Assembly (NCBI GenBank): GCA_002748065.1
Contig: PDRJ01000029.1
Span: forward strand, 1-64,000
Length of the DNA: 64,000 bases
Reading direction: 5' to 3'
Source: Bacteroidota bacterium
GTDB taxonomy: Bacteria > Bacteroidota > Bacteroidia > Bacteroidales > BM520
The translations under genes and the position numbers were made by a program. Under the pieces are notes generated by a model. The model was not told the origin of the DNA and did no database searches. It saw only the letters and a program-made list of their open reading frames with translations. Within the stretch, counting starts at the first letter, position 1. Each line of letters opens with the position of its first letter. Of this stretch, positions 3,064-7,794 are shown piece by piece.

Positions 3064-3780
3064 ATGAGGCCTAACAGATATCACCCCCTGAAGAAATATT
3101 TCACAGCTGTCCCCGCCAACTATGACCGGATCAACCGGCTTATGACATGGCGATTGGACCAGCGATACAGGAAGCGTATGGCAAAGCTTATCGTCTCTTC
3201 AGAAGCATGCTCCTTTCTGGACGTGGGTGCCGGAACCGGGGACTTAACCCTTCAAATTGCCTCGCATGACCCCACAAACCGCATTGCTCTTACAGCCTTG
3301 GACTTCAGTGATACCATGTTAGCCGAAATGGCCCGAAAGACGGCCTCTTTGAACCACAGCCCCATCCGGCGTGTTTTGGGTGATGCCTCCCAAATGCCCT
3401 TTGAAGAGGCTCAGTTTGATGCGGCAGGCACTGCCTTTGCCTTTCGAAACATGACTTTTGAAAATGAGAAATCAGAAAAGATCTTACAGGAGTACTATCG
3501 TGTCATTAAACCGGGAGGGAAACTTTATATTCTGGAGACTTCCCGACCCTCTTTAGCGCCCATCAGGTGGCTTTTTCACCTCTACCTCTATTTTGCTGCG
3601 GGCCTCTTAGGGGGCATCCTTTCGGGCAATCACGAAGCGTATCGCTATCTTGCTCGCTCGGCAACCCACTTCTATAGTCGAAAGACCATTCGTAACATGA
3701 TACAAAAGGCCGGTTTTGTGGAAGTAAAACAACGACCGGTTCTTATGGGAATGCTCGCCATCACCATCGCTTCCAAATAA
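3064..3780 (+). CDS. ubiE: Demethylmenaquinone methyltransferase / UbiE-MenG family SAM methyltransferase
   Basis: FTAVPANYDRINRLMTWRLDQRYRK, LDVGAGTGDLTL, FAFRNM, VIKPGGKLYILE. Start placed at 3064 because the longer ORF (2944) reads through the terminator and promoter. Confidence 0.9.
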   Translation: MRPNRYHPLKKYFTAVPANYDRINRLMTWRLDQRYRKRMAKLIVSSEACSFLDVGAGTGDLTLQIASHDPTNRIALTALDFSDTMLAEMARKTASLNHSPIRRVLGDASQMPFEEAQFDAAGTAFAFRNMTFENEKSEKILQEYYRVIKPGGKLYILETSRPSLAPIRWLFHLYLYFAAGLLGGILSGNHEAYRYLARSATHFYSRKTIRNMIQKAGFVEVKQRPVLMGMLAITIASK

Positions 3781-3992: not shown

Positions 3993-4019
3993 AAAAAACC
4001 CCGGCTATTCACCGGGGTT
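3993..4019 (-). terminator. Intrinsic terminator on the minus strand
   Basis: Minus strand AACCCCGG-TGAATAG-CCGGGGTT followed by a T run (TTTTTT counting the stem's last two Ts) then CATC. Confidence 0.85.
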
Positions 4020-4170
4020 CGCACACAAAAAATCAGGTTCTTTGTCGATAGGCTCCGCTAACTAAAACTATAGGTATTCACAGGGTCTCGGAAACCCTGT
4101 AGGCACAGAAACCTTGTATGCTTCCGTATGAAAAAAAGAAAAAGGCCTATCTGAACCTATAATAATGTAA
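3993..4170 (-). ncRNA. Putative structured small RNA with 6S-like architecture
   Basis: Minus strand: -33 TTTG (4204-4201), 19-nt spacer, -7 TAATTTCG (4181-4174); long-range stems AGGTTC/GAACCT (4158-4153 with 4040-4035) and GATAGGC/GCCTATC (4151-4145 with 4053-4047), large asymmetric central loop, apical hairpin ACAGGGT-TTCCGAG-ACCCTGT (4100-4080), then the terminator at 4019-3993. No credible ORF. Confidence 0.6.
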
Positions 4171-4313
4171 CTCCGAAATTAACATTTTATTTTCTCTCCT
4201 CAAAAAAATCACGAAGAAAAATAAAAGAGCACCTCAACAAACCAGCACCCAAAAATCCCCCAGAAGAGATCATAGGGGGAGTCATCATCCTAAAAAAAGA
4301 AGTTATTTCATTA

Positions 4314-6125: not shown

Positions 6126-6276
6126 TAATTATCGTTTTAGAATGGGGAGCAAAGGTACAATTTTATCGCTTACAAATCAAAATATGGCTATTTTTCGCTT
6201 TTGGCATCCTCTTTACAGCCTTTTTGGCTACCTTAGCTCGTCGAAAAAAAACACACAAAAACGACGAGAAAGTGTC

Positions 6277-7794
6277 ATGCCGGATCGTCCGAAAAGATCG
6301 AATAATATGGGTACGGATAGAAGAACTTTTTTACGTCTTTCAGCCATTGGAGCGGGTGCACTCTTCCTCCCCCGCGGCCTCTATGCGGGAAGAGAAGACC
6401 GACTTGTAACCTCCAGGCTAAGGATGAAAAAACAATACGAAGACACCTCCCCTATCTTCAACATGAGTGGATACCGAGCCCCCAGGATTCCGGTAGTACG
6501 CATGGGTTTCCTGGGTCTTGGCGACCGGGGAGGCAGTGCGGTAATACGTTACACCTACCTGGAAGGTGTTGAGATAAAAGCCCTCAACGATAAGCGAGAA
6601 GCTGCGGTCAGGGGATCCCAGAAGGCCTTACAGGAGGCCGGACTGCCCCAAGCCGAGGCCTATTACGGCTCGGAAGATGCCTGGAAAGCCGTTTGTGAAC
6701 GTGATGACATCGACCTGATCTACATCTGCACCAACTGGGCAAACCATACGCCCATGGCATGCTATGCCATGGAACAGGGCAAACACGTGGCCGTAGAAGT
6801 TCCGGCCGCCGTCACCCTGGAGGAGGCCTGGCAACTGGTGGAGACCTCAGAACGCACCAAAAAACATTGCATGATGTTGGAAAACTGTTGCTACGATTTC
6901 TTTGAACTCCTCACCCTCAACATGGCGCGCCAAGGCTATTTTGGGGACCTTGTTCATGCAGAGGGCGCCTACCTGCACAACCTGTTGGACTTAAACTTCA
7001 ACAAGCCAAAGGATGAGGAGCAGTATGACGCTGGCTACACCGATATGTGGCGACTCAAGCAGAACAGACGCAACGGGAACCTCTACCCCACCCACGGTCT
7101 GGGCCCCGTGTGCCAGATCATGAATATCAACCGGGGGGACAAGATGGAGTATCTCACCTCCATGTCAAGTGCCGACTTTGGGATGGCCCAAAGAGCGGAA
7201 GAGTTAGCCCAGAAGGATCCCTTCTATGCCCCCTTTGCGGAAGGAAGCTACCGCGGCAACATGAATACCACCCTTATCCGCACCTACCAAGGACGCACCC
7301 TTATGATTCAACACGACGTTACCTCTCTTCGTCCCTACTCAAGAATCCATCAAGTTACCGGGCAGAATGCCATGGCCCGCAAATGGCCCTCCCCTGCCAA
7401 AATTTCCAATGGCCATCGTTGGGTAGACAAGAAAGGGATGAAAAAACTTAAACGCAAATACACTTTCGAGATGGTGAAAAAGATCGGAAAGATGGCCAAA
7501 AAAGTGGGAGGCCACGGCGGAATGGACTTTCTGATGGACTGGAGGCTAATCGACTGCCTGCGCAACGGCCTACCACTGGATCAAGATGTATACGATGCCG
7601 CCCTATGGAGTGCCATCGCCCCCTTGAGCGAATGGTCGGTAGCCAACAGAAGCAACTCTGTGGATGTTCCCGATTTTACCCGTGGCAACTGGAAAACCAA
7701 CGCACCGGTAAACCTGGATATGAAGGGAGGAGGCACCACCGGAGTTCGTGATGTGAGCAAAGCTGACCGCAAAAAACAGATGAAGGTCCACTAG
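6277..7794 (+). CDS. Gfo/Idh/MocA family oxidoreductase, GH109-like, with Tat-type signal
   Basis: TDRRTFLRLSAIGAGALFLP signal; GFLGLGDRGGSAV Rossmann motif; KHVAVEVPAAVTLEEAWQLVETSERTKKHCMMLENCCYDFFELLTLNMARQGYFGDLVHAEGAYLH. Start may be 6277 or 6307. Confidence 0.85.
   Translation: MPDRPKRSNNMGTDRRTFLRLSAIGAGALFLPRGLYAGREDRLVTSRLRMKKQYEDTSPIFNMSGYRAPRIPVVRMGFLGLGDRGGSAVIRYTYLEGVEIKALNDKREAAVRGSQKALQEAGLPQAEAYYGSEDAWKAVCERDDIDLIYICTNWANHTPMACYAMEQGKHVAVEVPAAVTLEEAWQLVETSERTKKHCMMLENCCYDFFELLTLNMARQGYFGDLVHAEGAYLHNLLDLNFNKPKDEEQYDAGYTDMWRLKQNRRNGNLYPTHGLGPVCQIMNINRGDKMEYLTSMSSADFGMAQRAEELAQKDPFYAPFAEGSYRGNMNTTLIRTYQGRTLMIQHDVTSLRPYSRIHQVTGQNAMARKWPSPAKISNGHRWVDKKGMKKLKRKYTFEMVKKIGKMAKKVGGHGGMDFLMDWRLIDCLRNGLPLDQDVYDAALWSAIAPLSEWSVANRSNSVDVPDFTRGNWKTNAPVNLDMKGGGTTGVRDVSKADRKKQMKVH

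Follow-up and report, generated by a model that had tools for sequence, protein, structure and literature searches.

A putative RNA gene next to ubiE/menG

The window analysed here, a 64 kb stretch of DNA, contains an acyl-CoA ligase gene on the minus strand and, further along that strand, an element that adjoins a convergent ubiE/menG methyltransferase gene. The element begins with a putative sigma-ABfr-type promoter (4204–4174, minus strand), which can be read directly as TTTG (4204–4201), a 19-nt spacer and TAATTTCG (4181–4174), exactly as proposed in an earlier sequence-only reading of this DNA. The TAATTTCG box deviates at one position from TAnnTTTG, the consensus cited in PMC7366714. Combinations of TTTG, a spacer of 17–21 nt and a −7 box with at most one mismatch occur 31 times on the two strands of the 64 kb window, corresponding to about one per 4 kb, and the promoter site alone is therefore modest evidence. 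At the other end lies an intrinsic terminator (4020–3993, minus strand), in which GAACCCCGGU and GCCGGGGUUU form a 10-bp stem (4020–3996) around the loop GAAUA, followed by a U tract; the GC-rich hairpin and T run described earlier are thus both present. From the positions of promoter and terminator we infer a transcript of about 177 nt (4171–3994, minus strand). In the window copy, no internal ORF is longer than 12 codons, and none is kept in the homologue described below, in line with the earlier statement that a credible reading frame is absent.

Predicted fold

The predicted transcript and its last bases (4172–3990) fold with a minimum free energy of −58.1 kcal/mol compared to −41.1 ± 4.0 kcal/mol for 1,000 dinucleotide shuffles (z = −4.3), none of which was as good. 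Without the terminator, the body of the RNA has a z-score of −2.6, indicating that the terminator supplies part of the fold signal.

In the predicted structure, three nested helices on the minus strand bring the ends together. The outermost, P0 (4171–4021), pairs the 5′ end (4171–4166) with UGUGUGC (4027–4021) just before the terminator. P1 (4159–4034) consists of UAGGUUC (4159–4153) and GAACCUG (4040–4034), and P2 (4151–4047) of GAUAGGC(CU) (4151–4143) and (GG)AGCCUAUC (4056–4047), so that the two pairs of complementary arms pointed out earlier, UAGGUUC/GAACCUG and GAUAGGC/GCCUAUC, are recovered. Inside P2 follow hairpin H1 (4128–4104) with 9 bp and a 7-nt loop, hairpin H2 (4101–4079), formed by UACAGGGUUU CCG AGACCCUGUG and identical to the apical hairpin of the sequence-only reading, and a core (4075–4051; ACCUAUAGUUUUAGUUAGCGGAGCC in the window) that is mostly unpaired according to the pairing probabilities and partly paired in some low-energy alternative folds. 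The sequence-only reading had envisaged a rod with a large unpaired central region and one apical hairpin, overlooking P0 and H1. Because the 9 bp of H1 lie inside the supposedly unpaired region, the interior is predicted to be a multiloop in place of a bubble capped by a single hairpin, and the modelled fold is multibranched, with two hairpins and a 3′ core, unlike a 6S-type rod with a bubble.

A homologue with a different upstream neighbour

The genus sample comprised three genomes, namely that of the window (G000), G001 and G002. A blastn search of the two other genomes revealed a homologue in G002 (E = 2.7e-9), which adjoins the same convergent ubiE/menG methyltransferase gene as in the window (58% protein identity) and has a promoter-like site, GTTG-N20-TATTTTAG, at the same place. 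As the G001 contig ends inside the methyltransferase gene, this genome was left out of the presence/absence comparison at the element locus.

The G002 copy is predicted to fold with a z-score of −5.2 (0 of 1,000 shuffles as good) and with the same order of helices. Since the automatic consensus structure (model R1) misaligned the two hairpins, helices were compared by hand from the separate folds. ACA/UGU of P0 is kept, P1 is conserved with consistent one-sided changes, P2 is shortened to GGGC/GCCU, and the terminator stem is retained with paired changes. H1 and H2 share little sequence between the two copies, yet equivalent hairpins are formed: in G002, H1 has 11 bp, again closes a 7-nt loop and shows paired changes by hand count, and UUACAGC/GCUGUAA is found at the place of H2. 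In total, approximately eight pairs are altered on both sides and approximately seven on one side, a hand count from two sequences that is descriptive. The core, by comparison, is near-invariant, with 24 of 25 positions identical between the two homologues (ACCUAUAGUUUUAGUUAGYGGAGCC). An alternative pairing is available in both homologues, in which AURGG of the P2 5′ strand (4151–4143 in the window) pairs with CCUAU of the core (4075–4051) at a cost of about 4 kcal/mol in the window and about 1 kcal/mol in G002; in these energy models it might represent a conformational switch.

The arrangement of genes bears on an alternative already raised in the sequence-only reading, in which the element is only the 3′ UTR of the acyl-CoA ligase mRNA, and on the related option of a 3′ fragment processed from that mRNA. 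The ligase gene is the upstream neighbour in the window, lies on the same strand, and its stop codon precedes the promoter-like site by 263 nt, all of which would suit such an origin. In G002, however, the element follows an unrelated gene, whose product carries a type IX secretion (T9SS) tail domain, and the promoter-like site stands ahead of both copies. Because this site, the fold and the terminator are kept while the upstream neighbour differs, the element does not behave as the 3′ UTR of the ligase mRNA, and we regard this origin as improbable.

Even less probable is a small protein or a dual-function RNA. G002 does contain a 35-codon ATG frame, MGSDGRLIIENELQMFVFTYSDVLQDEAVNTYSFS (L003:383–490, G002:C229), which crosses the structured region, but the window reads ATA at the position of this ATG and the frame is lost through the core, leaving the 12 codons mentioned above as the longest window ORF; the G002 frame is probably due to chance.

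The features expected of an sRNA gene, namely a putative promoter, a terminator, lack of an ORF and a structure kept in changed surroundings, are all seen at the sequence level. They support the earlier proposal of an independent RNA gene. We estimate a probability of roughly 85% that the element is a structured RNA gene, and consider a real, independent and so far undescribed sRNA gene likely.

Range of the element

An Rfam scan of the window together with a permissive scan of the region placed no family at the element above cut-off. The RteR sRNA (RF04181) matched weakly (23.3 bits, cut-off 72), and only in the terminator region, leaving the body unmatched. In blastn searches, the element had no second strong match within the genome it comes from, and plasmids yielded a single 22-nt chance match.

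RNA-model searches covered 394 genomes of the order and 395 genomes of the class, using stricter filters with which strongly diverged relatives would be missed. Besides the two members, the order-level search yielded only G010 (25.9 bits), judged a chance match and located in sequence that reads as coding, and the class-level search only G635 (29.6 bits), also judged chance and overlapping the beginning of an initiation-factor-2-like gene. The core pattern with up to three mismatches gave four extra matches in the order-level genomes, which we attribute to chance because the model search, run on these same genomes, recovered none of them as homologues. In a core-pattern scan of GTDB contigs, the sole real member was the G002 contig RZYD01000049.1, the other six matches reaching at most 17.5 bits, and loci around more distant ubiE genes contained no homologue (best score 9.3 bits). 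Most likely, the element matches no described RNA family and, among the searches run, occurs in two genomes only; as far as these sequence searches see, it appears restricted to one genus of a Bacteroidota lineage.

Relation to 6S RNA

The sequence-only reading had proposed, as an inference, that the element is a 6S RNA. As a 6S, or as a second and diverged 6S, it would mimic an open promoter and hold RNA polymerase. In length (approximately 175–180 nt), in its paired ends and in having an A/U-rich strip on the 3′ side, the element indeed resembles the 6S RNAs of Bacteroidota (RF01685, RF01693 and the genus copy described below). The strip, CUAUAGUUUUAG, is loosely similar to the TAnnTTTG −7 box, and two 6S genes per genome are known in the Bacillus cereus group (PMC7726162). 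However, none of the three 6S families RF00013, RF01685 (6S-Flavo) and RF01693 (Bacteroidales-1) matched at E ≤ 10 between positions 3,700 and 4,500, and none reached its gathering score within the window.

A separate 6S is present in all three genomes of the genus. In G000, it is located at C37:47066–47197 (L001:1501–1632) between the zapA and RNase Y (rny) genes, and scores 34.1 bits with 6S-Flavo (E = 0.002 in the genome; cut-off 85) and 19.9 bits with Bacteroidales-1 (cut-off 60). The same 6S, surrounded by corresponding reading frames, was found in G001 and G002 (L206 and L207), the three copies having a mean column identity of 91%. As these scores are far below the Rfam cut-offs, Rfam annotation would miss the 6S in this lineage, making it a case in which gathering cut-offs hide a lineage's 6S RNA. 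A position of ssrS after zapA is typical of beta- and gamma-proteobacteria (PMC7641849); the element lies not at a zapA-adjacent locus but next to ubiE/menG.

A model built from the three genus 6S genes (R2) gave the element only 2.1 bits with filters off, compared to 59.9, 36.2 and 34.3 bits for three remote 6S candidates from the order, which are matches of the Rfam Bacteroidales-1 search below cut-off. Clear Bacteroidales-1 members (L176–L178) are too distant for this model, which accordingly covers close paralogues while the Rfam scan covers the wider family. In the converse search, the model of the element found nothing at the genus 6S locus. By eye, there is local likeness between element and genus 6S (GUUCAGAUAGGC to GUUCAUUAGGGC and CCUAUAGUUUUAG to CCCUAUUCGUGUUUUAUAG), and the core recalls the 3′ strip of the genus 6S, a resemblance that the models run both ways do not support. 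A counterpart of the conserved 6S segment CAGGCCUC...GUGGA is absent from the element, which also differs in having a separate terminator hairpin. Lastly, the 6S architecture comprises a closing stem, one bubble and one apical stem-loop, whereas the predicted folds of both homologues show a multiloop that carries two long hairpins, with a strip on the 3′ side only. Given that the 6S RNA of this genome is encoded at another locus, we conclude that the element is not 6S, and consider either form of the 6S assignment very unlikely.

Proposed mode of action

To our knowledge, few sRNAs have been described in Bacteroidota beyond gut Bacteroides. The element shares with GibS and FopS of Bacteroides thetaiotaomicron (PMC7366714, PMC11697453) an intergenic location, a conserved and presumably single-stranded segment and an intrinsic terminator. 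Whereas GibS is relatively unfolded and FopS consists of a single-stranded 5′ stretch plus terminator, the element is highly folded in the prediction and has its core on the 3′ side.

From the sequence comparison, we propose with about even odds that the RNA is a genus-restricted, trans-acting sRNA whose conserved core is presented to either mRNAs or a protein. P0, P1 and P2 would bring the two ends of the RNA together, H1 and H2 would act as stabilising hairpins that are free to evolve, and the near-invariant core, located just 5′ of the returning strands of P2 and P1, would be the working surface. The core would most likely contact mRNAs via short seeds, perhaps together with the RRM-1 protein of the genome, or bind a protein directly. 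Hfq, ProQ and CsrA are generally missing from Bacteroides (PMC12119571), which employ RRM-1 proteins, RbpB for example (PMC12119571, PMC11697453). Since RRM_1 proteins are also encoded in the genus (one in G000, one in G002 and two in G001), an RRM-assisted sRNA is plausible. A search of the genus genomes for antisense targets (complement of the core, up to two mismatches over 16 nt) yielded matches not above those of a backwards control; in the absence of a long antisense target, short-seed pairing or protein binding is left.

We rate base-pairing somewhat above pure protein binding. That the RNA binds a protein through its core as sponge or scaffold, instead of pairing with mRNA, is a possible though doubtful reading, to which the length of the conserved strip, its repeated UAG-U units, the stable scaffold, the presence of RRM_1 proteins in each of the three genomes and the lack of a long antisense target would be well suited; however, the core matches no known motif and lacks GUAGGAUA, which PMC12119571 quotes as the motif reported for RbpB. 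Being structured, stand-alone and equipped with an A/U-rich strip, the RNA could also be a tracrRNA or an antisense RNA to a CRISPR repeat or mRNA, but no further copies of the core's complement are found in the genus genomes and blastn detected no strong second match in the element's own genome, rendering this extremely improbable. A further, unlikely idea is that the element represents a lineage-specific RNA class whose strip of about 25 nt beside a multiloop docks a conserved protein such as the RRM-1 regulator or RNA polymerase; if true, it would be a global regulator comparable to 6S yet unrelated to it. The combination of a fixed unpaired strip with freely evolving hairpins in one compact RNA offers a concrete probe for finding the partner of this RNA.

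Two other features of the window are of note. The acyl-CoA ligase gene is adjoined, in divergent orientation, by a gene for a Gfo/Idh/MocA protein that carries a glycosyl hydrolase 109 domain at its C terminus (6142–7791). At the start of the contig, ahead of an isocitrate dehydrogenase gene, positions 1–609 consist of nested degenerate tandem repeats with periods of 7, 103, 157 and 260, built from AGCTAAC and GACGGAA units.
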